Source: Planctomycetota bacterium
GTDB lineage: Bacteria; Planctomycetota; Planctomycetia; Gemmatales; Gemmataceae
NCBI GenBank assembly: GCA_021413735.1
Contig: JAIOPV010000151.1
Location: forward strand, 1 to 42,608
Reading direction: 5' to 3'
DNA: 42,608 bases
Under the pieces are notes generated by a model. That model saw only the letters and a program-made list of their open reading frames with translations. It made no database searches and was not told the origin of the DNA. Below, one piece after another: positions 19,298 through 33,604 of the stretch. Within the stretch, counting starts at the first letter, position 1; every line of letters starts with the position of its first letter. The position numbers and the translations under genes are program-made.

Positions 19298-19949
19298 TCA
19301 CGGTATCGCCCCCAATTGCCAGTGTGCGAACAACCCCGGTTGCCGACGGGCCAGGCCCCGCAACCAGTGCGTCGCACGCCGCTGGTAGTGATAACGCCGG
19401 TACTTCTTCTGCGCCCATCGCACCAGCCTACGGTTCAGGCCGGAGAAGACAGGATACAGGGCGGACTTGTAGAACCGCCCATAGTAGTTGACCCAACCCC
19501 GAACGACCCGGTCGAACATACGAGACAGGTCGTCGAGGTCCTTGTCGCTCATCGAGTGGATTCGCCATTGCCGGACCGTGGTCCCGATTTCCTTGGCGGC
19601 CTTGCGGCTCACCCCTGGTAAGAAGCTCATGAAGAACTTCCCCCAGCGATTCACCGCCTTCCGCGGTCGGAACGTGAACCCCAGGAAGTCGAAGGCGATC
19701 TGAGGATAGTTCCTGGTCCGGTTGCTGTCCCGACAGTAGACGATCTTCGTCTTCTCCGGGTGCACTTCCAGCCGGCACGCTGCGAACCGCTCTTCCACCG
19801 CCCGCCGAATTGTCAACGCCTGCGCTTCAGTTCGACAATGAATCACGATGTCGTCCGCATATCGCTCGAACGGGGTGTCGGCATGGTTTTCCGCCATCCA
19901 CCGGTCGAACGAATAATGCAGGAACAAATTAGCCAACAGCGGTGAGATC
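19298..19949 (-). pseudogene. Group II intron reverse transcriptase/maturase, C-terminal part
   Basis: Begins at the LSR1 insertion as ...GVI-SPLLANLFLHYSFDRWM and contains the polymerase active-site motif RYADDIVIHC, the thumb/maturase domain (FDFLGFTFRPRKAVNRWGK) and the GIIM motif RGWVNYYGRFYKS. No En (HNH) domain is visible after it. With 21955-22302 and 25100-25339 it forms an uninterrupted 411-aa protein. YADD is intact, so only the insertions block expression. Confidence 0.92.
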
Positions 19950-21593
19950 ACTCCGCCCACAATCTTGCGAACTGCCCCTTTCGGGGCCTTGATCAAAAGG
20001 GCGGGGGTCTACCTTGTACACCACCTTCACAGCGTCTGTCCCGACCTCGACACGCTTCACCAACGCTCGCAGAATCTCCCGCCGAGCTTTCCAGTCTGCC
20101 GTCTGAAGCCCACTCTGGACTCGCGCGGCGAACCCTTCCAACTGACCGATCGCCGCCGTCAGTTCGGCCTCCTCCGACTCGCGCTTCGTCGCCTTCTCTG
20201 CTTCCCCTTGCAACCTCGCGAGCCTGCTCCGCGCTTCCTTCACACGCGGCTCAAACTCATCTTTGTCCAGCAACCCCTCTTCATACGCATCGATCAGTCT
20301 CGCGATACCGCGACGCACCTGAGCGATCAGCTTTCCCACTTGGTCGCTCGGTCGCGTGCCCTTCAACCGCTTCTGTGACCGCCGCGTTTCGTACTCTCGC
20401 TTCACACGGTCCGGGTCGGCCAACAGGGCGCACACATCGTCCCACACCGCCTTGTCCAACATGTCGGTCCGGCACTGCTTGTTCTTGCAGACTCGCTGCC
20501 CGCCGAACCGATACGCATCCGTCCCGATGCACCGATAGTATGCGTAGTGCCGGGTCTTCCCCTTCCGTGACGACCGGCTCAGTGGCTTCCCGTAATACGC
20601 ATACCCGCACCCGCCGCATGCCACAAGACCTTGAAGCAGGTACTTCGCCCCGCGTTGGCTCTCTCGCCGGCGCTTGCGGTTCGCTCTCAACTGCTCGGCC
20701 ACGGCCGCGAACACCGCCTCCTCCACGATCGCCGGGACGGGAATCGAAACCCGCTCTTCGGCTGCTGTCTCATCTGTCGATCCCGTTCGCCGACCGTGGG
20801 TTGGTCGCCCTCGCTGTGGGCGGATTTTTGGGCGGGCTGGGCCAACCCGCGTCTTACCGAACTCGGCCCGCCCAACGTAGGCCGGGTTCCGCAGAATTCC
20901 CCACACCGTCTTCCGGTCCCAGAACGTCTTGCCTTTCGAACTCGGCACCTTCCGCTCCTGCAATCGTCGGCAGACATCTCCGATCGAGTCTCCGTCCACC
21001 CCGATCCAGTTGAAGATCTGCCGAACGACTGCGGCATGCTCGTCGTGAAGTTCGTACCGCGCTTTGCCACCGCTCGCGAGTTTGCCGACGTACCGGTATC
21101 CATACGGCGCTCCACTGAGCACATTCACCGATCCACCCCGAGCCGCGTGCCGCTTTCCCCGTCGGCTCCGCTCGGCGATCTTGGCCCGCTCGTACTCGGC
21201 CATCATCCCCTGCACCTGGAGAAGTAGATCCTCTTCCGGGGACCGACCGATTGGGCGGTTCAAGAACACCACCTCGATCCCGCCACGGCGGAACTCTTCG
21301 AGGAGAAGCACTTGGTAGGCATAACTCCGAGCCAGGCGGTCGGGCGAGTGCACGTACAGTCGGTCGAGGACACCGGCCGCAGTTTGGTCACGGAGTCGCT
21401 CAAGGGCCGGCCTCAGCAGGGTCGCTCCGCTGTGCCCTTCGTCGAGAAAGCAGAACTCGGAATCGAGCTTTAGCCCATCGGCACGGACACGTTCGCGGAG
21501 AGCCTCGACCTGGCTCGCGATGGTGTTCGCGTCGGCTTGTTGTTGGGACGAGACGCGGGCGTAGATGGCGGCCCTCGATTGTGGCGTGGTCAT
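19929..21593 (-). CDS. Large serine recombinase of element LSR1
   Basis: A 554-aa site-specific recombinase. The resolvase catalytic domain occupies about residues 8-150: YARVSSQQQADA with nucleophile Ser15, then SPDRLARSYAYQVLL with the active-site arginines. A recombinase domain follows (SGAPYGYRYVG, DGDSIGDVCRRLQERKVPSS), then a zinc ribbon (CGGCGYAYYGKPLSR ... CKNKQC) and a long C-terminal coiled coil (about 430-520). ATG 21593 overlaps the TGA of the small upstream ORF (ATGA), so translation is coupled. The frame runs through the left end of the element and stops 17-20 bases inside the target gene, giving a target-derived C-terminal tail. The gene is intact and probably mobilises 19950-21954. 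Confidence 0.9.
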   Translation of the reverse strand: MTTPQSRAAIYARVSSQQQADANTIASQVEALRERVRADGLKLDSEFCFLDEGHSGATLLRPALERLRDQTAAGVLDRLYVHSPDRLARSYAYQVLLLEEFRRGGIEVVFLNRPIGRSPEEDLLLQVQGMMAEYERAKIAERSRRGKRHAARGGSVNVLSGAPYGYRYVGKLASGGKARYELHDEHAAVVRQIFNWIGVDGDSIGDVCRRLQERKVPSSKGKTFWDRKTVWGILRNPAYVGRAEFGKTRVGPARPKIRPQRGRPTHGRRTGSTDETAAEERVSIPVPAIVEEAVFAAVAEQLRANRKRRRESQRGAKYLLQGLVACGGCGYAYYGKPLSRSSRKGKTRHYAYYRCIGTDAYRFGGQRVCKNKQCRTDMLDKAVWDDVCALLADPDRVKREYETRRSQKRLKGTRPSDQVGKLIAQVRRGIARLIDAYEEGLLDKDEFEPRVKEARSRLARLQGEAEKATKRESEEAELTAAIGQLEGFAARVQSGLQTADWKARREILRALVKRVEVGTDAVKVVYKVDPRPFDQGPERGSSQDCGRSDLTAVG

Positions 21594-21954
21594 CGACTTC
21601 GACCTCCTGTCTTGGGAGTGTTTGTCGGGACTCGGCGGCCCTTCGACCGGGGAGCGGGTTTCGGCGTTCGTGCTGGCTCGGGCGTAGCGAGGATCTGATC
21701 GTAGGCTGCGGCGAGGTACTCGTCCGCGAGCCGTGTCGCCTCAAACACTCGGGAGATGGATGGCGTTCGCGATCGACTCTGTGTCGGTGGTTCGGAACCG
21801 TCCATGGTGGATGCCCTCCGGGCCGGCTCGGAGGACACCCACGCGATCGCTTACATCCCACCCGGACGCCAGTCCGATCCGCGGGACGGCCGCAGCCGCG
21901 CCCGATCGATTATTGTCTCGATCAGGGCCTTGTTCGCAACATTGTGGGTGGAGT
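19950..21954 (-). mobile_element. LSR1: serine-recombinase element in the intron reverse transcriptase
   Basis: The 2005-bp element is flanked by GATC (19946-19949, 21955-21958). Its ends are 23-bp inverted repeats (19950-19972 and 21932-21954; 21 of 23 identical, starting ACTCC and ending TTGCGAAC). For a serine integrase these are the two halves of attP. The target is the reverse transcriptase motif GGVISP. It carries the 554-aa recombinase and one small coupled ORF. Excision leaves GATC once and restores the frame. Confidence 0.85.
21590..21805 (-). CDS. Small ORF translationally coupled to the LSR1 recombinase
   Basis: ATG 21805 gives a 71-aa protein: an acidic/helical part RVFEATRLADEYLAAAYDQI followed by a basic, proline-rich tail (TPKPAPRSKGRRVP). 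Its TGA overlaps the ATG of the recombinase. No family is recognised. Position, size and coupling recur at the two other recombinase elements, although the sequences do not visibly match. A role as accessory DNA-binding or directionality factor is possible but unproven. Confidence 0.5.
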   Translation of the reverse strand: MDGSEPPTQSRSRTPSISRVFEATRLADEYLAAAYDQILATPEPARTPKPAPRSKGRRVPTNTPKTGGRSR

Positions 21955-22302
21955 GATCACACCACCTTGCGGTGTGCCTCGGTCGCGGTCAGTCATCGTT
22001 CCATCAGCTCCCTGAGCCGGCGCTTTCAGCCAGCGCTCAATGTAAAGTAGCACCCACGGGCAATCCGTGTGCTTCCGCAACGCACGCATCATCAAGGCGT
22101 GATCGATGGAATCGAAAAACGCCTTGATGTCCAGATCTACCACCCAGTCGTACCGCCAACACCGCGTGCGGGCTTGCCCCACGGCATCGGCAGCCGACTT
22201 CCCCGGCCGGTACCCGTACGAGTCAACGTGAAACGAAGGTTCCACACTCGGTTCCAGGTACAGTTTCACCACCATCTGCGCGACACGGTCTCCCACTGTG
22301 GG
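21955..22302 (-). pseudogene. Group II intron reverse transcriptase, middle part
   Basis: Encodes reverse transcriptase blocks 1 to 4 between the two recombinase elements: TVGDRVAQMVVKLYLEP, DSYGYRPGKSAADAVGQART, the palm motif WVVDLDIKAFFDSIDHALM with the first catalytic Asp, and RGTPQGGVI, where LSR1 interrupts it. It is 116 codons long and contains no stop, so the fragment is preserved in frame with its neighbours. Confidence 0.92.
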
Positions 22303-22340
22303 CATCTTCCGAGCGCACTACCCCATCGTCCCAATCCCCT

Positions 22341-22625
22341 TTGGGATTCGTAACCGTTTGCCATCCCCATCATCCCCTTCGGGGACAGCAACTCCCTGTC
22401 ATCAGCATTCGCCACGGTGAACACCCGGATGTCATTGTTCGGCTACCCGACGGCAACCACGCGGCCATTGCCCTCGATGCAACTGATCTCGCGGAGAAGC
22501 CCTCCTCGCCGTCGAGCCCACCCGGTCACGCCTCGCACATGCTCGACATCGACGGACTGCGTCGGATGGTTCAACTCCTCGACGCCATTCGCCGACGAGG
22601 ATCTCCCCTGAACCCATCGTCCTGA
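22341..22625 (+). CDS. DUF5372-like accessory protein of LSR2
   Basis: A 94-aa frame starting at TTG 22341, with the pattern VTVCHPHHPLRGQQLPVISI and HPDVIVRLPDGNHAAIALD, then HMLDIDGLRRMVQLLDAIRR. The opening (T-HP-HPL-G-x-L) and the later L-P-x-x-T/A-D-L-A block resemble the DUF5372 family, which I recall beside recombinase genes; this is from memory and should be checked. The frame is open back to the element edge, so the start is uncertain. No ribosome-binding site is obvious. Confidence 0.5.
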   Translation: MGFVTVCHPHHPLRGQQLPVISIRHGEHPDVIVRLPDGNHAAIALDATDLAEKPSSPSSPPGHASHMLDIDGLRRMVQLLDAIRRRGSPLNPSS

Positions 22626-22705
22626 GATCTCGCAACTCTTCGTTCCATGGTGGGGGTAGGATGCCCCCGCCCGCACTTCGTCGAATCCCATCGAGAGGGA
22701 ACTCC

Positions 22706-22909
22706 ATGAACTCGCATCCGTCTCGGATTACGCCACACATCGGCAGTACGCACGTCTGGTCCGATCTCCCCGACGACCTGCAACAGCGTGCCGTCCGGCT
22801 CCTCGCCCAACTCGCTTACGCCCAACTCCGGCAGACCACACAACGACCCACACAGGAGATGAACGATGATCACCCCACGCAGCACCAAGATTCGCCCCGA
22901 CCATCTTGA
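22706..22909 (+). CDS. Small ORF overlapping the LSR2 recombinase start
   Basis: ATG 22706 follows GAGAGGGA and gives 67 aa (HVWSDLPDDLQQRAVRLLAQ, then LAYAQLRQTTQRPTQEMNDD). The central helix is amphipathic, and a run of Gln, Arg and Thr follows. Its last 44 bases overlap the start of the recombinase gene in another frame, implying coupled translation. Function unknown. It is the counterpart by position of the small ORFs at 21590-21805 and 32674-32907. Confidence 0.55.
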   Translation: MNSHPSRITPHIGSTHVWSDLPDDLQQRAVRLLAQLAYAQLRQTTQRPTQEMNDDHPTQHQDSPRPS

Positions 22910-24956
22910 CCGCAAAGCGTTCGTGTACGTCCGGCAATCCACGCTGTTCCAGGTTCGCGAGCACACCGCCAGCACCGCTCGGCAGTACGACCTCGCCCAG
23001 CGAGCGAGGAACCTGGGCTGGTCGGAAGCATCGGTTACCGTCATCGATCAGGATCAGGGACGATCCGGCTCCTCCGCAGTGGATCGCGACGGCTTCCAGT
23101 TCCTGATCGCCCAGGTCGGACTCGGTCAGGCCGGGGCCGTTATCAGTCTCGAAGCATCCCGCCTGGCTCGCTCGTGCAGCGACTGGTATCGCTTGTTGGA
23201 GATCTGTGCCCTGACCGACACGCTCGTCATCGACGAGGACGGCGTGTATGACCCGGGTCAATATGCCGACCGTCTTCTGCTCGGCGTGCTCGGCAGCATG
23301 AGCGAAGCGGAACTCCACTGGCTCCGCAACCGACTCCTCGGCGGCAAACTGGCCCGAGCCGAGCAGGGCGAACTCCGGATGCGTCCACCTGTCGGCCTGG
23401 TCTTCGACGCGGCTCGTCGATTGGTGCTCGACCCCGACGAGCAAGTGCGCCACGCAGTCCAGTTGTTGTTCACACAGTTCGAGTTGACCAACTCGGCACT
23501 GGCTGTCGTCAAGCACTTTGCCGAACACCGACTGCTCTTTCCCGATCGCCTCTGGGGCAAGACCCGCGACGGCGAACTGCTCTGGAAGCCTCTGCGACAT
23601 GGCCGCATTCTGGATGTCTTGCACAACCCGCGGTACGCGGGCGTCTACGTCTACGGTCGCACTCAAACACGAACCCGAGTTCTGCCCGGCGAGGCACCTC
23701 GCATCAAGGGCCGCACGCGGCGCGTGGCACAGACCGATTGGCCGATCGTGCATCACGACAAGCACCCCGGCTACATCACCTGGGAACAGTTCCTTCGCAA
23801 TCAGCAACGTCTCGGCGACAACTGGACGAACCGCGTTTCTGATCGCCGCGGCGCCGTGCGAGAAGGCAACGCCCTGTTGCAGGGAATCGTGTTGTGCGGG
23901 CAGTGTGGTCGGCGAATGAGCGTGCGGTACACACGCGACGGGAAGACGCCCACCTACGAGTGCAACCAGATCCACAAGCAGCAGGGTGGACGCACTTGCC
24001 AATCCATCCGCGGTGACGGTGTCGATGCGGCCGTGACCCGCTTGTTTCTCGAAGCCATCCAACCGGCTCAACTGGAAGTCTCGATGGCGACGCTGGCGGA
24101 GATCGAGAACCACACCCGCCAGGTCGAGCGACAGTGGCAGTTACGTCTGGAGCGAGTTCGTTACGAGGCCGATCTGGCCCGGCGGCGTTTCCAGGCTGTC
24201 GAACCGGAGAACCGTCTCGTCGCTCGAACTCTGGAGAAGGACTGGAATGAGAAGTTGTCAGCGGTCGAGAAACTGGAGCGTGAGCGGGCTGTCGTTCCGA
24301 TGTCGGCTGCGTTGCCCTTGAGCCCGGAAGAACGCCATCGCATTCTGAACCTGGCCGAGGATCTGCCCGCGCTGTGGCATGCGCCGACAACGACGCCGGT
24401 GGAGCGGAAGCAACTGTTGCGGTTGCTGATCAAGGACGTGACACTCACCAAGGGTGCCACCACGGTCACAGCAGCGTTGCGTTGGCAAACGGAGGTCTGC
24501 TCCGGGGTGGAGGTTCCTCGACCACCACGCTCTTGCGATGCGCGGCGGACACCGACCGCCGTGGTCGAGCGAGTGCGTGCTCTGGCTGTGGATCACACGG
24601 ACCGCCGGATCGCCGAACAGTTGAACGCAGACGGATGGAAGAGCGGCATGGGAGGGAGTTTCACGGCAAGCAAAGTCCAGTGGATTCGCTACGTCCACGA
24701 GATTCCGAACAGTTGCCCGGAAGGTCCGGCGGCGTGCAAGCCGGGAACACGTGGCGATGGTCGATGTTCGGCCCAGGTTGCAGCGAAGGCACTGAACGTG
24801 ACGGTGTACACAATTGCGGACTGGTGCAAGAGCGGGCGGCTGGACGGCATCCGGGCTGGTGCTCACAGTCCGTGGTGGGTTCAACTCACCCCTGCGGTCA
24901 TCGAGCAGTTGCGAAAGCCGATCCAGCGGCGATGGAAGAAGCGGTCGTCGAGGTGA
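22866..24956 (+). CDS. Large serine recombinase of LSR2 with C-terminal excisionase-like HTH
   Basis: A 696-aa protein. The catalytic domain is of the YVRQS type (nucleophile Ser25; SLEASRLARSCSDWYRLLE; the GVLGSMSEAELHWLRNRL helix E region). The recombinase domain follows (LVLDPDEQVRHAVQLLF, ILDVLHNPRYAGVYVYGR), a zinc ribbon (CGQCGRRMSVRYTRDGKTP, YECNQIHKQQGGRTCQ), and a coiled coil at about 410-475. From about residue 635 there is a MerR/Xis-like helix-turn-helix, AAKALNVTVYTIADWCKSGR, followed by WWVQLTPAVIEQL. The LSR1 recombinase lacks this tail; the LSR3 recombinase has it. The gene is intact and probably moved this element into the reverse transcriptase gene. Confidence 0.92.
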   Translation: MITPRSTKIRPDHLDRKAFVYVRQSTLFQVREHTASTARQYDLAQRARNLGWSEASVTVIDQDQGRSGSSAVDRDGFQFLIAQVGLGQAGAVISLEASRLARSCSDWYRLLEICALTDTLVIDEDGVYDPGQYADRLLLGVLGSMSEAELHWLRNRLLGGKLARAEQGELRMRPPVGLVFDAARRLVLDPDEQVRHAVQLLFTQFELTNSALAVVKHFAEHRLLFPDRLWGKTRDGELLWKPLRHGRILDVLHNPRYAGVYVYGRTQTRTRVLPGEAPRIKGRTRRVAQTDWPIVHHDKHPGYITWEQFLRNQQRLGDNWTNRVSDRRGAVREGNALLQGIVLCGQCGRRMSVRYTRDGKTPTYECNQIHKQQGGRTCQSIRGDGVDAAVTRLFLEAIQPAQLEVSMATLAEIENHTRQVERQWQLRLERVRYEADLARRRFQAVEPENRLVARTLEKDWNEKLSAVEKLERERAVVPMSAALPLSPEERHRILNLAEDLPALWHAPTTTPVERKQLLRLLIKDVTLTKGATTVTAALRWQTEVCSGVEVPRPPRSCDARRTPTAVVERVRALAVDHTDRRIAEQLNADGWKSGMGGSFTASKVQWIRYVHEIPNSCPEGPAACKPGTRGDGRCSAQVAAKALNVTVYTIADWCKSGRLDGIRAGAHSPWWVQLTPAVIEQLRKPIQRRWKKRSSR

Positions 24957-25099
24957 ATGCCATTGGGTATGCTGGGTCCGTGTGTCGAGTCCGAAGGAAC
25001 CCCGCTTCGAGGTCGGCCGGAAGTCGCAGAACCGGCTCATCGAGCGGGATTCCATTCCCAACCCTCATGTGAAGGAGTGCAGTATGAGCGAGACATCGG

Positions 25100-25339
25100 G
25101 ATTCCCAATGTCCGTTCCCGACCGTCCGGCTTCGGAATTTTGACACTCCTCACCGGCGGCGGGAAGTACGTCCCGGAGGACATCCGATTCCAAATCCGAT
25201 AGAGGTTCTGTCGAAGCCTCTTCTCGAACCGGGCAATCGACTCCCCGTCAACGCCTGCTGCCCCCTGATTGGCTTTGACACGAAGCCAAGCCTCCCAGAC
25301 AAGCCGCTTCGCAATACCAAACGGTTTCGCTTCACCCAT
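25100..25339 (-). pseudogene. Group II intron reverse transcriptase, N-terminal part
   Basis: ATG 25339 opens MGEAKPFGIAKRLVWEAWLR and KANQGAAGVDGESIARFEKR, the N-terminal reverse transcriptase-0 region of intron-encoded proteins, and continues FPPPVRSVKIPKPDGRERTL-GIP up to the LSR2 insertion. It is 80 codons long with no stop. The three pieces together make 412 codons including the stop. Confidence 0.92.
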
Positions 25340-27515: not shown

Positions 27516-27690
27516 TCAGTTACCTTTCGGTTTCGTCCTTGTTCTCGCTCGACACGCCTCCTCAAATTCGGCAGGAGTCACATAGCCCAACGACGAGTGG
27601 ATTCGCTTTCGCATGTAGACCTCGTCCAAGAACCGACCGAGCTGCTTGCGAGCGTCCGCCAAGCTCTCGTACTCTGTCAGGTACACCTCT
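27516..27690 (-). pseudogene. IS3-B OrfB, C-terminal end
   Basis: Reads EEVYLTEYESLADARKQLGR and FLDEVYMRKRIHSSLGYVTP to the stop at 27516, the standard end of IS3 integrase domains (LGY-TP-EFE). It is separated from the rest of OrfB by LSR3 exactly after ...MRTLKK. Confidence 0.9.
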
Positions 27691-27708
27691 TCCTGTTTGG
27701 AAGAGGCA

Positions 27709-29305
27709 TCATTTCCCTCCACTCTGCGAATGCGTTGTCGAGCCCTTCGCACCTGTTCGGCTTGCTGGCTTGCACAACTTCGATGGTAGCGTCCGCCTGC
27801 CGTGGTACTTGATCTCGAACGCGCGTAATTGTCGAAACCGGCTCATCTCCGCATTCGCCCACACGATCCATCTCCCATTCTCTCCACGCAATTGCCGCGC
27901 GTGCAACCAGCCCGACCAACGCCAGCGATGCACCACAATCGGCTTCACGCCCAAGCTCTTCGCCAACTCGGGTAGCCAATGCTCGTCCTTCCCGGGTAAG
28001 TCGCTCGCATCACGGATCCCCGCCGGAACTCCCGCCAGACCAAATCGCGTCCACAACTGACGCACGCAATAGCCCGTGTACTTCTCCCCGCGAGCCGCCC
28101 GGTATCCCTCGGCGTTCAAGGCATCCGCAATTTCATCGGCCGACATGCCATCGCCTCGCAGGGTGACAACACGCTGTCGCAACTCCTCGTAGCGTTCGAT
28201 CGACGAATACTTTCGCAGACCCTGCCGGACTTGGTGGCGAGTCGTTGTGCCACCTCGCCAGTGAACCACCGCATCGACCCGTTCCGTCTCGCCGTGCCGA
28301 GTCAACTCCACACGTTCGATCAACAGCCGCACAATGGCCCGCCGATCGCCGCCCCTCGTCGTGGGGCTTCGCCACAGCCCCAGCAGATCCTTTGCCAGAG
28401 TACCAATCCGCTCACGGTCCGACACGCTCAAGTGCCGCGGTTGCTCGGCGAGGAATCGAGCATGCTCCTCGTCCAGGTTCTGCTTCTCCTTCAGTTTCTG
28501 CTCCCACTGGCGTTCCAACTCGCGAGCTACCAGCCGGTTCGTGGGATCGACCGCGTCGTACTGACGCTTCGCACGCTCCACTTCGTATCCGGCTCGCTCG
28601 AGCCGCTGCTTCCAGTGTGCGTGCAGCCGTTCCCGCTCCTGCTCGGCCCGTTCGGCAGCCCGCATACTCAACTCCAGTGACGCGGGCTTGACAGCTTGCA
28701 GCACCAGTGCTTCGACCAGTCGATCCGGGTACGCCGCCACCACGCTCTGGCAGCGTGGCCCGCCATATTCCTGGAACTCTCGATCGCAAGCGTAACGCGG
28801 GTTGGCCGAGACTCGTGCGTTCCTCGCCGCCATCGGATGACCGCACCGACCGCAGGCGATCATACCGTTGAGCAGTGTCGGGGCGCGACCAGTTGCCTTC
28901 TTCGAACCCGGTCCGCGATCGTTGGTCGCGAGTCGGCGGCCGTTCTGTTCGTATTGTTCCCACGAGATGTACGCCGGCACCTTGTCCTTGAGCAAACAGA
29001 TCCACTCCTCGGGCGGCGCGGTCCTGCGACCCGACTTCGTCTTCCCCGCGATCCGTCGCTGCGGATCGAGCGGGCATCGCCCGAAGGCGTAGGCTCCGGC
29101 GTAGATCGGGTGACGTAGCATTGCGTAAAGGCCGCTCCGCCGTGGTCGCTGCCAGATCAGTTGACCCTTGCCTGGCCCCTTGTACACCCGTTGCCCCAAC
29201 TGGATGTTGTTCGTCACGAAGTACGCATGAGTCTTCGTGAGCGACCCGAGTTCGGCGAACTTGGCGAACACGAGCGACACCACGGAGCGGACCTGCTCAT
29301 CGGGA
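27709..29305 (-). pseudogene. LSR3 recombinase, C-terminal two thirds
   Basis: Continues after the insertion as DPDEQVRSVVSLVFAKFAEL, LYAMLRHPIYAGAYAFGR, a zinc ribbon (CGRCGHPMAARN ... GGPRCQS), a long coiled coil and, at the C-terminus, an excisionase-like HTH (LAKSLGVKPIVVHRWRWSGW, NGRWIVWAN). With 32097-32677 it makes 726 codons, a 725-aa protein close to the LSR2 recombinase in length and plan. No other lesion is seen, so the split by the IS21-like element is the inactivating event. Confidence 0.88.
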
Positions 29306-29332
29306 TCACGATGTCGTTCGCGGTTTCAAGTA

Positions 29333-31160
29333 GGTTCTTCCGCAGAGTTGGTGAGGACGTATCTGCCTCACAAAACGTCACGATCCGCATGTATTCCGCG
29401 TTTACGGCTTGGCTCGGACCCGTGCCCGCAACAGCGGTAAACCGGCTCGACCATAGCCCGAACGCTTGATCAGCTTCAGCCGGTTCACTTGGCCTTCAAC
29501 AGGTCCATTATTCCACGGGGTGGACAGAGCCGCTTGCACGGCCGACGAATCGGTTCTCAACGTCTCTGCGAACATCCGAACCGATCTGTTCTCGCTGGCA
29601 TCCGCACGAGCCAGCCAATCCGACAATGACGTCTTCGACTGGCCTCGCGTCATCTCCAACAACTCGTTCGCCAACTTCAGCGAAGCGCACAACTCCGGTA
29701 TCGCGTTCACCGTCACCATCCGCTTCGTCGCCTCGTCCGAACGCTTCTCCGTCCGACGCACGAATTCGAACGACAACTGGCGAGTTGACAGCCGAGGCGG
29801 ACGCGGCGGTCCCCGAACCGAACGCATCGACGGGATTCCCGCCGCCTCCAACCGACGACGCAAGAATCGCCACACCGCGTCATACGAAGGCGAACAGCCC
29901 TGATCCTTCAGTCGTCGTTGCAACATCGTGACGCTTCGCCCGCCCTCGTGAACAAACGCATCCACCGTCGCTCGAAATCCCTCCAGACTCGATCTTCGAT
30001 GACCGATCCGTTGTCCGTCTGGACAACGCTCGCGATGAAGGTAGTCGAGAACCGAGTTTCGCGAGATCCGCAACTCGCGGGCGATCTGGCGAGTGCTTCT
30101 GCCAGAACCATGTAACCGACGCACCTCGTTGAAGCGATCCAGCCTTAGTTGCTGACCACGCGACAACCCCGGTGATGACGCAGTACTCGCAGGTCCCGGG
30201 AGGCTGGTCGCGTCGTGAGTTGCGGTAGTGCCCGTTGCCACGGGAAGCGTCGATCTGCTTGCACTTGCAGGGGTTGGTGGAACTTCTCCTTGCGACGCGA
30301 TTGTTGCAGGTGGCTCCAACGCAGCATCGAGCGCCGAGGCGTGCTGCTCGAAGAGCCGTTCGACGAGTTCGCGGATGTTGCCGACGAGGTGGAAGCGATC
30401 CGCAACTTGCAGGGCCATCGATGCCCCAGCCGAGCAGGCGTTAGCGTACGCCGCCCAACGGTCGCGAGTGATGACCTCGATCGTGGGGTGCGACGACAGC
30501 CACATCTGCACAACCGAGCCGTCTCGCCCTTCGAAAAGGTCGATGACGCGTCGTCGTTCGAGATCGACCACGATTGTGCCATACGTCTGCCCCTTACGAA
30601 GGGCGAAGTCGTCGATTCCGACGAACCGATACCGCGGCTCTGGCTGTGAGACTGTCGTTTTCACCCGTCTGAGGATCGTGTCTCCACTTGCGGGCATGGC
30701 CAGTTTGACAGATAGCCGTGCGGCGGGTTCGCCACCGAGTGCAATTCCCAAGGTCCGGTGCTCTTGAGCCAACCGAGTTGTCGATCTCGCGTGAGCCGCA
30801 GCCAGGTCGAGGATTCGCTCACAGAAGATACGCCGCGGGCAGCCGGCGTTGGTGCAGAGGAACTTGCGGAGTCGGAGGATGAGCACAAGTTGGCGACCGC
30901 AGATAGGGAGATCCGCGATGACGCGGCGATACCGACTGTGAATGCGATCAGACGATTGACCACAGACCGGGCAGAGAGCGTTCCCAGTGGTGGGGGAAAG
31001 TGCGATCGCAAACAACTTCAGCGTGACAACAAGATCGGTCGGCGACAGATGATTCCCGATGAGTTGAGAGAGCAGATGGTACGGAGACATGACGAGAGCC
31101 AGTTTGAGCTGGGCACCCATCATTCTAACAACCGTCCATCACCAACTCTGCGAATGAACC
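29333..31160 (-). mobile_element. ISL3-family insertion sequence, intact copy B
   Basis: The 1828-bp element has ends GGTTCTTCCGCAGAGTTGGT (29333) and GGTTCATTCGCAGAGTTGGT (complement of 31160) and a perfect 8-bp target duplication TTCAAGTA (29325-29332 and 31161-31168), as expected for ISL3. It lies inside the left terminal repeat of the IS21-like element. The perfect duplication and intact gene indicate a recent insertion. Confidence 0.95.
29402..31123 (-). CDS. ISL3-family transposase
   Basis: A 573-aa complete transposase. The N-terminal zinc finger has CPVCGQSSDRIHSRYRR and CTNAGCPRRIFCER. The catalytic core opens with IDDFALRKGQTYGTIVVDLE (first Asp) and VITRDRWAAYANACSAGASM (second Asp); DRFHLVGNIRELVERLFEQH follows. 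An HTH insert lies at about 365-395 (TRQIARELRISRNSVLDYLH), and the C-terminal Glu is in NNGPVEGQVNRLKLIKRSGY. ATG 31123 lies 37 bases inside the element end. It is the template against which the lesions of copy A (802-2536) can be read. Confidence 0.95.
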   Translation of the reverse strand: MMGAQLKLALVMSPYHLLSQLIGNHLSPTDLVVTLKLFAIALSPTTGNALCPVCGQSSDRIHSRYRRVIADLPICGRQLVLILRLRKFLCTNAGCPRRIFCERILDLAAAHARSTTRLAQEHRTLGIALGGEPAARLSVKLAMPASGDTILRRVKTTVSQPEPRYRFVGIDDFALRKGQTYGTIVVDLERRRVIDLFEGRDGSVVQMWLSSHPTIEVITRDRWAAYANACSAGASMALQVADRFHLVGNIRELVERLFEQHASALDAALEPPATIASQGEVPPTPASASRSTLPVATGTTATHDATSLPGPASTASSPGLSRGQQLRLDRFNEVRRLHGSGRSTRQIARELRISRNSVLDYLHRERCPDGQRIGHRRSSLEGFRATVDAFVHEGGRSVTMLQRRLKDQGCSPSYDAVWRFLRRRLEAAGIPSMRSVRGPPRPPRLSTRQLSFEFVRRTEKRSDEATKRMVTVNAIPELCASLKLANELLEMTRGQSKTSLSDWLARADASENRSVRMFAETLRTDSSAVQAALSTPWNNGPVEGQVNRLKLIKRSGYGRAGLPLLRARVRAKP

Positions 31161-31285
31161 TTCAAGTAGGGCCACTTTCGCGGCGAAGGACCGGGCCACC
31201 CAGAGTTGCCCTGCGAGACGTTTTTGCAACTTGGGCAGAGGGCCATCAATCCCGCCGCTCCGTCGATCCCCGCGTGTGTCCGATG

Positions 31286-31603
31286 TCAGCCAGTCTTCGT
31301 CAGCCACGGAACGGGACGATGAAGTTTCTCGCAGAGATCGAGTGCGGCTTGGTAGACGCGCTGTCGGGTGACCGCCGCGTACAGGTCCAGGTGATTACCC
31401 GCTGAGCCGCACCCGAAACAGCGGAAGAGATTTCGTTTCAGATGAACCGAGAACGTGCGGCTCTTGCTCGACGTGGATCGGTGGACGGGGCACGACCCAC
31501 GCAAGCTGTCGGCCTCGGCCAGCGGCAGCGGGTAGTCGAGCAGTCTCAGAACCTCAGCCATCGAGACCATCGCCCGCACAGCCCTGAAATCCACAGTGGG
31601 CAT
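31286..31603 (-). CDS. CHC2 zinc-finger protein (DnaG-primase-type zinc ribbon)
   Basis: A 105-aa protein consisting almost only of a CHC2 zinc ribbon: LRGSCPVHRSTSSKSRTFSV, then HLKRNLFRCFGCGSAGNHLD, giving ligands C-x2-H ... C-x2-C, followed by LYAAVTRQRVYQAALDLCEK. In DnaG this domain reads the DNA template, but no TOPRIM or polymerase domain follows. ATG 31603 is preceded by GGAG at good spacing. It is the only intact gene within the IS21-like remnant apart from the later ISL3 insertion. I believe such small CHC2 proteins accompany some IS21-type elements, but that is recollection. Twin palindromes lie 180-240 bp upstream. Confidence 0.75.
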   Translation of the reverse strand: MPTVDFRAVRAMVSMAEVLRLLDYPLPLAEADSLRGSCPVHRSTSSKSRTFSVHLKRNLFRCFGCGSAGNHLDLYAAVTRQRVYQAALDLCEKLHRPVPWLTKTG

Positions 31604-32096
31604 GGCATCTCCAGGAAACCAAGCGGATCAGAGAAGAGGAACCCGTAAAGAGTTGATAGTGAGAATAGCAAATACAATCTAATTATTGTCGAACAGATAT
31701 GTCTTGATAGTCAGTGCGATTCCGCTTGGTCGCAACATCCCGACCAGCGATCACGCTGCCCCGAGGAAGGGTTGTTGTGAACGGTTGCCCGCGGGCAACT
31801 GGCGGAACTCCTCGTTGCGTTGCGTTGCCCGCGGGCAACTCGACTCATCACCCCCAACAGTCATTCAATGTGTTCCAAGATGTAGGACGGATGGAGAGGA
31901 AGATAGTTTCAGGAAAAGTTCGATTGAGTCGAATCTTTTTCTGCATCGCTGACTGAAATGGTTCATGCACACGGACACACGACTCGGGATTGTACCTGGC
32001 CCGCGCCGAGTGGCCCGCGCTGGTCCGCGATCCAGATACCGCGCCCTGGCCGGGGCCATCCCGCGAAAATGGCTCTACTTCAAAACGCTGCTGACA
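31604..32096 (-). other. Upstream region of the CHC2 gene within the IS21-like remnant
   Basis: About 490 bp with no credible gene. It contains an AT-rich stretch (31650-31700) unlike the surroundings, which may hold the promoter, two perfect 16-bp palindromes, and the right terminal repeat with internal GCGGGCCA-type repeats (31995-32060). Confidence 0.5.
31784..31839. repeat. Two identical 16-bp perfect palindromes, 40 bp apart
   Basis: GTTGCCCGCGGGCAAC occurs at 31784-31799 and again at 31824-31839. Each copy is its own reverse complement. The start-to-start distance of 40 bp is close to four helical turns, so proteins bound to both would lie on nearly the same face. It sits upstream of the CHC2 gene. 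Candidates are operator or transposase/initiator-like binding sites; no T-tract follows, so terminators are unlikely. Confidence 0.7.
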
Positions 32097-32677
32097 TCAC
32101 GAGCGATACTACCATCCGGCGACCGGACGTACCCAATGGGCACGCAGGTGAACAGTTCGCCCCGTCGGGCCTTGTTCAACTTGCCCTGGTGCATCCGCGC
32201 CTTCAGGACGTGAAGTTCGGCCTCGGACATCATGCCACGCAGCCCGAGCAGGAGGCGATCCGAGGGTTCAATAGGGTCGTACACTCCGTCGGCGTCTGCA
32301 ATCAGCACCTGGAAGAGGGCGCACAGTTCCAACAACTGATGCCAGTCCCGGCACGACCGGGACAGTCGGCTCATCTCGCGGCCGAGAACGATGCCCACGT
32401 GCCCGAGTGAGACCTCGGCGAGCAGCCGCTGAAATCCCGGCCGGTTCTCGACCGAGGTGCCGCTGATGCCCTGGTCGTCGTCGATGACCAACACGCGATC
32501 GTCGACCCAACCCAGAGCGACAGCCCGCTGTCGCAGCTGGTACTGCAAGTCGGCGGACTCGCGGTTGCTGACGACCTGGTGCGAAGTCGATTGGCGAATG
32601 TAAACGACGGCGAGCCGGTCGCGATGTCGGGGCTGAATCTTGTGCCCGAATGGGACGGTGGGATTAGCGTGAGTCAT
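32097..32677 (-). pseudogene. LSR3 recombinase, N-terminal catalytic part
   Basis: ATG 32677 overlaps the stop of the small upstream ORF (ATGA). The fragment encodes the complete resolvase domain: AVVYIRQSTSHQVVSN with the nucleophile Ser in IRQS, DQGISGTSVENRPGFQRLLA, LGREMSRLSRSCRDWHQLLE, GLRGMMSEAELHVLKARMHQ, then PIGYVRSPDGSIARD, where the IS21-like element entered. The catalytic domain is 60-70% like that of the LSR2 recombinase by eye, so the two belong to one group. Confidence 0.88.
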
Positions 32678-32907
32678 GCGTTCCCTCCGCACACGGGTCG
32701 GGAACGGCGAGTCGCTCTGCCAGCATTCGACCGAGGCGTCGGAGGAGTTCCTCTTGCTGACTGGTCGGCAGATCCTGCCACCGAGGTTCGGTCGGCGATT
32801 CCGGTTTCAGGCGCGGGGGGGAGCGAGGACGGGCTGCTCGGACATGGTGTGACTCCTTCAGCGGTGCCGGCGAGATGCTCCTGGCACCAGTGTGCCAGTT
32901 CGAGCAA
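32674..32907 (-). CDS. Small ORF translationally coupled to the LSR3 recombinase
   Basis: A frame of about 77 aa from TTG 32907 (LLELAHWCQEHLAGTAEG, then a Ser/Pro/Arg-rich tail) ends in TGA overlapping the recombinase ATG. The frame is open further upstream with plausible residues (EVVVEVDTTPPVIVCPWA), so the real start may be earlier, near the element edge, but no ATG is available. Function unknown; position matches the small ORFs of LSR1 and LSR2. Confidence 0.45.
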   Translation of the reverse strand: MLELAHWCQEHLAGTAEGVTPCPSSPSSLPPAPETGIADRTSVAGSADQSARGTPPTPRSNAGRATRRSRPVCGGNA

Positions 32908-32984
32908 CGCCCACGGGCAGACGATTACCGGAGGTGTTGTATCAACCTCGACAACGACTTCGTCGATGGGAGGTGTTTGTCGTG

Positions 32985-33538
32985 TCTTTCTTCAGCGTCC
33001 GCATGAACCTCTCGCACTTCCCGTTCTGCATCGGCTTGCCCTTCGCCGAGCAACTCACTGCGATCCCGTGGCGTTCCAACTTCGCCACGTAGTCCTTCGA
33101 CATGTACTGCACACCATGATCCGAGTGATGGATCTTGGGAGGGCCATGCTCTCGCAAGGCTCGGTCCAACGCACGATGCGTCAACTCGCTCGACAGGTCA
33201 CGATCCAAATACCAACCCCGAACCGCTCGACTGCACACGTCGATGATGACCGCCAGGTACACGAACTCGCGGCCCAATTCGATGTACGTGATGTCCGCCG
33301 CCCAGGCTTCGTTGAGCTGCGTGATCTCCTTCGTTTTCAGGAGATTGGGCCAGTCGCGGTGATCCGGAGAATACTCCGATGTCACCACGAACCTGAGAAG
33401 TTGAACCTTCCAGTGGCTGATGACGTGTTGGAGAGTTGATGCTTGCGGCACAACTCCGAGGTCGTGGATTCTTTCCGCAACGACGCGAGGGCAATCTTGG
33501 CTTTGAATTCGGGTGAGAACTTTCGCTGCTTCGCCATG
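32985..33538 (-). pseudogene. IS3-B OrfA/OrfB fusion, internally deleted
   Basis: ATG 33538 starts an OrfA (KQRKFSPEFKAKIALASLRK, ESTTSELCRKHQLS). Around 33410 the frame changes (HVISHWKVQLL) and the end of OrfA and start of OrfB are missing. The sequence passes directly to the OrfB core: EITQLNEAWAADITYIELGR, VYLAVIIDVCSRAVRGWYLD, HHSDHGVQYMSKDYVAKL, NGKCERFMRTLKK. D-D-E residues are visible, but the deletion removes the OrfB N-terminus, so the element was defective before LSR3 arrived. Confidence 0.8.
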
Positions 33539-33604
33539 GTCTGACCTCCTGACCATCAGCTTATTTCCACTCTACTACGCGCCCAGTTTTCGGGCGCACG
33601 ACAG

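Follow-up and report, generated by a model that had tools for sequence, protein, structure and literature searches.

Small serine recombinase elements that probably use conserved codons of other mobile elements as attachment sites

Why should three elements encoding large serine recombinases (LSRs) lie inside genes of other mobile elements within a single stretch of DNA? The window, i.e. the whole stretch of 42,608 nucleotides analysed here, is contig C123 of G000, the 9.8-Mb genome of a Planctomycetota bacterium. The original prediction, made from its sequence, was that such recombinases favour attB sites that are common and harmless to disrupt. Our follow-up supports this interpretation, and the reading we prefer is that, very probably, small autonomous LSR elements use conserved or catalytic codons of other mobile elements as attB and live as parasites of parasites.

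All three predicted insertions are real, with recombinase domains inside and RVT_1/GIIM or rve pieces in the flanks, and the recombinases fall into two LSR groups. LSR1 and LSR2 have broken one group II intron reverse transcriptase (RT), encoded on the minus strand, into three pieces: an N-terminal piece that runs to LGI (25099..25339; no Pfam match of its own), a middle piece from PTVGDR to QGG (21960..22301; RVT_1) and a C-terminal piece with SPLLAN, YADD and GIIM (19298..19950; RVT_1 and GIIM). The LSR1 breakpoint lies at QGG^V, between QGG and VISPLLAN, and that of LSR2 at LGI^P, between LGI and PTVGDR. With an intact RT from locus L103 as the reference, the pieces flanking LSR1 correspond to residues 127–244 and 238–450, and LSR2 sits just ahead of residue 127.

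The LSR1 element (19950..21960, minus strand), delimited by its junctions and terminal inverted repeat, measures about 2.0 kb from core to core and encodes an LSR of 554 aa (19929..21593, minus strand) with the Pfam domains Resolvase, Recombinase and Zn_ribbon_recom. Its ends form a near-perfect inverted repeat (19941–19972/21932–21963), i.e. an imperfect attP dyad. The LSR1 frame has no stop codon inside the element and terminates in target RT DNA (19929–19950); in the relative L182, the LSR frame continues in frame into the RT. The LSR2 element (22301..25099, plus strand) spans about 2.8 kb from core to core and encodes an LSR of 696 aa (22866..24956, plus strand) with the same three domains, a small DUF5372 protein (22341..22625, plus strand; PF17342, E 1.1e-8) and a second small ORF (22706..22909, plus strand) that resembles, by eye, one in L104.

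Cores were found by comparing both junctions of each element in the codon register of the target. For LSR2, this yields CC on the target strand (GG on the plus strand; 22301–22302 and 25098–25099). For LSR1, a shared core of 4 bp had been proposed; the two junctions instead share 6 bp (GTGATC), which is what the window alone leaves, and it is only through L182 that the core narrows to GT on the RT strand (19950–19951 and 21959–21960). Two genomes of the same genus carry the LSR2 site in its empty form: the RT parts are contiguous in L223 (1258 and 1254), compared with a gap of about 2.8 kb in the window, and likewise contiguous in L224, where merely 51 unaligned bases separate the RT parts at the LSR1 site. 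DNA relatives of the RT middle piece were found in only 2 other genomes among the 95 searched.

LSR3 lies in the OrfB gene of an IS3 element, next to an IS3-type rve domain. The predicted insertion into OrfB stands, as do the 2-bp cores expected for LSR2 and LSR3, while its motif (RTLKK-EEVYL) and edges (27693–32984) needed correction: the break reads RTLK^QEEVYL, the second K being element sequence, and the interrupted element extends from 27697 to 32992 core to core on the minus strand, with AA as the core on the target strand (27697–27698 and 32991–32992). OrfB is left as an N-terminal piece up to RTLK (32992..33556, minus strand; rve) and a C-terminal piece beginning with QEEVYL (27590..27697, minus strand), recognised by eye and with an approximate outer end. 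The recombinase itself (27709–32692 overall, minus strand) has its Resolvase, Recombinase and Zn_ribbon_recom domains spread over two pieces, Resolvase in the N-terminal one (32075..32692, minus strand) and Recombinase and the zinc ribbon in the C-terminal one (27709..29283, minus strand). An insertion of about 2.8 kb within LSR3 (29311..32096), apparent as a gap relative to L074 and from Pfam, consists of an ISL3 transposase (29402–31123, minus strand; Pfam) and about 0.9 kb with a strong inverted repeat (31769–31854).

The same motifs are broken in other genomes, which places these sites above chance. Relatives of LSR1 occupy the same RT motif in four other genomes: L076, L081 and L082, which are 79, 62 and 42% identical to LSR1, respectively, and L182, whose host is in a different family of the same phylum. 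The crossover falls on the same Val codon in L076 and L182; L081, with a single visible junction, has Ala at the Val position, and in L082 the shared run sits one codon earlier. Two further LSR1 relatives, L180 and L181, have no RT host in the flanks checked, and L183 has an IS256 piece on one side. Five relatives of LSR2 (L100, L101, L103, L104 and L113; 59–66% identity) lie at LGIP^ in Thermoflexales, Ktedonobacteria and a Methylococcaceae bacterium (Chloroflexota, Proteobacteria); L102, a member of the LSR2 clade with 56% identity to LSR2, has no RT host. As for LSR3, its relative L074 cuts an IS3 OrfB at the same Lys, seen from both sides, and L078 cuts an IS3 OrfB at the core on the left. 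A second IS3 begins about 30 bp from the right LSR end in L078, and related repeats are similarly paired on either side of an LSR1 relative in L077. Double insertions also recur: L101 and L104 have a second LSR in the same RT, at the DxKxCFD motif, and L107 holds another pair of LSRs in one RT. Decayed or truncated LSRs (L075, L077, L083 and L087) were excluded from the counts, and L017, L022 and L086, on short contigs, were given no target class. The predicted preference for common sequences agrees with sites that are both common and conserved, and with close relatives of LSR1–3 re-using a motif in different host genes; that the sites are chosen since their disruption is harmless is plausible.

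A genome scan of GTDB returned at least 531 relatives of the LSR2/LSR3 clade, of which the best 80 were analysed. This was the comparison of homologue edges proposed with the original prediction, and we looked for the contrary outcome, most homologues lying in intergenic DNA or unrelated genes. The opposite was seen: 63 of these best 80 are flanked by pieces of mobile-element genes, namely RT in 29 cases (24 at site R1 and 5 at site R2), IstB in 30 and other genes in four (IstA, IS66, IS630 and an IS4-type gene, one each). Two of the remaining 17 lie beside ICE conjugation genes, 11 are without an assigned target and four are at contig ends. Among the best 80, RT pieces lie on both sides at 19 loci and N- and C-terminal IstB pieces at 17 (the enrichment test tallies 18 two-sided IstB loci for these 17 true splits, L115 having two C-terminal pieces); L153 and L156 also have host pieces on both sides, and about 24 of the 63, L125 and L172 among them, show a host piece on one flank only. 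When the recombinases are grouped at 90%, 39 of the resulting 53 clusters lie in mobile genes (L100, in two frames, was left out). By NCBI naming, nine phyla are represented among the hosts of the 63, one host lacking a phylum.

Class assignment followed a few individual decisions. L167, the RT piece of which is oddly placed, went into the unassigned class despite a phmmer match, L129 was added as RT, and L110, whose RT piece starts at residue 240, was scored as RT-R1 with its near-identical sister L146, its site being presumed. Five tree neighbours of IstB or RT hunters (L143, L126, L118, L131 and L166) were kept unassigned. By eye, no mobile gene adjoins L150, L175 or L177, and the actinobacterial L155 and L171 adjoin PrgI/TraG-type conjugation genes and are perhaps within an ICE. 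A small protein of cluster C0 lies by the LSR in 69 of the best 80 loci, nearly always upstream; Pfam recognises DUF5372 in the C0 members of the window's LSR2 and of L104, and the member at L119 has no Pfam match. The cyanobacterial RT-R1 elements L106, L108, L109, L114, L129 and L146 have 1.1–1.7 kb separating the LSR from the next RT piece, and a conserved ORF (cluster C15) lies in this gap.

For comparison, 23 other LSR loci (11 from G000 and 12 from a second genome, G006), outside the LSR1–3 search results and with undefined element edges, served as a small control. In the flanks examined, none of the 23 LSRs lies between the two parts of a split transposase or RT (Fisher p 3.6e-10 by 90% clusters). 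Because this two-sided test is hard on large elements, the other end of which is far away, a one-sided figure is also given: some transposase sequence lies within 1.7 kb in 7 of the 23, as read from the 25 commonest of 86 Pfam families, with one transposase match outside these possible, and set against this figure the enrichment loses strength (p 2.9e-5 by loci, 7.2e-4 by 90% clusters). Another LSR element that recurs, close to an exonuclease-like gene, is seemingly present in both G000 and G006 (L088, L089, L184 and L185), and RNase_T occurs in four control ORFs.

Target class tracks descent. In a quick FastTree tree of 112 LSR rows (96 distinct), which leaves out the LSR1 group and has two long-branch joins flagged, 16 changes of class suffice, versus about 53 in shuffles, with two changes for IstB, five for RT-R1 and one each for ISAs1 and IS3; relabelling L072 as IS701-type and setting L176 apart again gives 16. 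RT-R2 has two origins, in separate starred clades, which together with the LSR1 group makes the RT a target of several lineages.

Where, then, within their targets do these elements insert? RT insertions form three clusters, R1 at residues 125–137, R2 at 191–197 and R3 at 238–244, the last being that of the LSR1 group, one stray aside; a few RT edges lie elsewhere (120, 145, 173 and 560). Over ±6 aa, in 20 intact RTs less than 85% identical, these sites reach conservation percentiles of 96.6 (R1), 84.7 (R2, moderate only) and 99.1 (R3), and random triples are equally conserved in 10 of 20,000 draws (132 with ±4 aa, 19 with ±8 aa). The IstB junctions inspected come after W-x-x-[VI]-[FI]-x-[DE] or variants, and the IstB-type locus L176 is, in our own reading, apparently at the P-loop instead. 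The Glu in ISAs1, IS701, IS4 and IS630 and the RT Asp are catalytic residues. As a separate observation on RTs, C1 of G182 has ten maturase-domain matches of equal score, with a 97-aa frame, and at one of the ten places, L263, the RT frame is broken just ahead of the maturase domain.

Eight lineages allow the 2-bp core to be placed exactly, and in all of them it occupies codon positions 1–2 of a conserved residue: GT/Val in LSR1, CC/Pro in LSR2 and in the cyanobacterial R1 elements, TT/Phe in the second R2 clade, AA/Lys in LSR3, GA/Glu in LSR-A (two copies combined) and LSR-B, both of G006, and GA/Asp-Glu in the IstB elements. The third (wobble) base is outside the core and differs between junctions or copies in the resolving cases. 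Phase 1–2 throughout has a chance of 1.5e-4 for eight lineages, or of 1.4e-3 for six independent ones, the eight not all being independent and perhaps amounting to six. Shared runs in L156, L082 and the first R2 clade hold the codon 1–2 dinucleotide, but also others, and the core of the IstB loci L128 and L151 is, in our own reading, apparently AA in an Asn/Lys codon. The core phase was read from individual junctions, the LSR-A attB column counts being blurred by the frameshifted L071.

A mechanism can be proposed in which attB would be the DNA for the most conserved or catalytic residues of the group II intron RT, of IstB of IS21 and of DDE transposases. Such a sequence would persist because the encoded motif cannot change and, with the core on codon positions 1–2, silent third-base drift would leave the site intact. 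Integration, presumably performed by the LSR itself, would have to match the crossover dinucleotide and breaks the host gene; to multiply, the element would move from copy to copy and among different members of the target family, and it may additionally ride on its host element. The habit may have evolved through the supply of targets together with a low cost to the cell.

We see an even chance that several LSR lineages independently evolved to hunt mobile elements with the crossover dinucleotide placed on codon positions 1–2 of catalytic or invariant transposase and RT residues; their attB would then tolerate third-base changes and could not be lost by mutation without killing the target, and the elements would act as natural suppressors of transposons and introns. 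The foremost alternative, which we consider unlikely though worth weighing, is that these are ordinary site-specific integrases for which mobile genes are just another conserved attB, with no adaptation to mobile elements. Conserved host genes do serve as targets of other LSRs: in G000, L092 lies, by eye, in a comM-like gene, two control flanking ORFs match Mg_chelatase (the one traced being L092), and the accessible part of one study reports competence genes as enriched LSR targets (PMC10083194). Yet nine mobile families recur (RT, IstB, IstA, ISAs1, IS701, IS4, IS3, IS66 and IS630), few host genes are among the targets of this clade, and one RT motif was arrived at by two separate clades, with LSR1, from a third group, having chosen the same RT.

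How the elements spread can be followed in G006 (12.4 Mb), where 13 of 33 Recombinase matches are copies of LSR-A. All 13 left junctions and all 12 remaining right junctions fall at the same host Glu codon (L189 has the left junction only). Two frameshifted relatives, L197 and L198, 69–74% identical to LSR-A, lie in the same kind of gene, ISAs1 transposases, and the hosts tested (the empty L225 and L229, L189 and L197) score above the cut-off of the NCBIfam ISAs1 model. Searching for the motif gave 26 ISAs1-type sites, and zero for the reversed control pattern; 12 sites are LSR junctions by position, and seven of the other 14 were fetched (L225–L231), all being uninterrupted, intact empty copies. 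Set against the empty site, LSR-A insertion repeats nothing beyond the sequence shared with attP. LSR-B is present in three copies in G006, two of which, 99.5% identical, occupy two different IS701-type transposases (host models IS701 and, weakly, IS701_3), each cut at a Glu, in W-S-V-E and F-A-L-E; L194, the third copy, comes after an IS701 piece. An IS4-type assignment for the target of L072 was tried and dropped; NCBIfam places this target weakly with IS701.

These copies bear on the idea that the LSR is a passenger, its copies being spread by movement of the host IS or by gene conversion between IS copies. Some ISAs1::LSR-A composites do share IS flanks and IS-type target duplications, as judged by eye in L061 and L066. 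However, most pairs of LSR-A copies are about 99% identical in DNA, while the ISAs1 hosts are 64–67% alike, and LSR-B spans two different IS701-type genes, which gene conversion cannot do. This divergence of the LSR-A and LSR-B hosts limits the passenger route to a secondary role, and as the general explanation we hold it to be improbable. In addition, and again by eye, L062 (C8) and L069 (C20) hold the halves of one target duplication, the right flank of one matching the left flank of the other, which suggests an exchange between copies, as if arms had been swapped and the genome rearranged.

More improbable still is that the recombinases have been domesticated by their hosts for silencing transposons: the examined insertions do disrupt the mobile gene at a catalytic or conserved motif, but relatives in nine phyla and 13 copies in one genome look parasite-like. 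Least credible is neutral nesting, i.e. elements landing anywhere and surviving only in mobile-element graveyards; a window dense with IS fragments would suit it, but the recurrence of exact sites—the same motif broken in unrelated genomes, RT insertions clustered at three positions and one codon at every LSR-A left junction—rules it out as the main cause.

If the preferred reading of LSR elements as parasites of mobile elements is true, it would define a predator–prey link among bacterial mobile elements and offer a reason for integrase specificity to evolve, namely to exploit target sites that the prey's active sites hold fixed. Further gains would be a practical rule for attB prediction (a core on codon positions 1–2 of an invariant residue) and a source of recombinases for defined sites that a genome offers in many copies.

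How do these elements compare with known systems? Homing endonucleases and inteins occupy invariant active-site motifs and likewise use sequence conservation to keep their target; here, in contrast, neither nuclease nor splicing is involved, and the target is a parasite that stays broken. Tn402/Tn5053 are res-site-hunting transposons that seek other mobile elements, yet they do so by DDE transposition near a resolution site, whereas here an LSR crossover takes place inside conserved codons. The layout of IS607 serine transposases, with an N-terminal DNA-binding domain, does not fit, Resolvase beginning at residue 8, 18 or 28 in the window LSRs, and Pfam finds no DDE domain in these proteins as expected of a DDE insertion sequence. 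Serine integrases of the phiC31 and Bxb1 type do match: all three window LSRs share their domain order (N-terminal Resolvase, Recombinase, zinc ribbon) and a 2-bp core without further duplicated target bases (for LSR1, by way of L182), and LSR1 also has the dyad attP. What differs is the target, catalytic or conserved codons of mobile elements, and the small size of two of the elements (LSR1, 2.0 kb; LSR2, 2.8 kb).

Judged by titles and the start of abstracts, full-text searches (preprints, supplements and subscription papers lying outside) brought up no description of LSR insertion into mobile-gene motifs, nor is it described in the accessible parts of PMC8989519, PMC13137831, PMC10680173 and PMC4853749. 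According to the accessible text of Durrant et al. 2022 (PMC10083194) and PMC13137831, LSRs of the DUF4368/TndX clade are multi-targeting and recognise relaxed short motifs; judged on that text, they resemble the present elements in making several insertions per genome into different genes and differ in that a defined coding motif is used here, and none of the three LSRs of the window matches DUF4368 in Pfam at E 0.001. Finally, the enrichment of competence genes among LSR targets (PMC10083194) and the targeting of Mg-chelatase by phage WO (PMC9203015) represent, as far as the accessible parts of these papers go, the same reliance on a conserved coding attB, with the difference that theirs is a host gene, whereas the elements described here use the multi-copy genes of other mobile elements.
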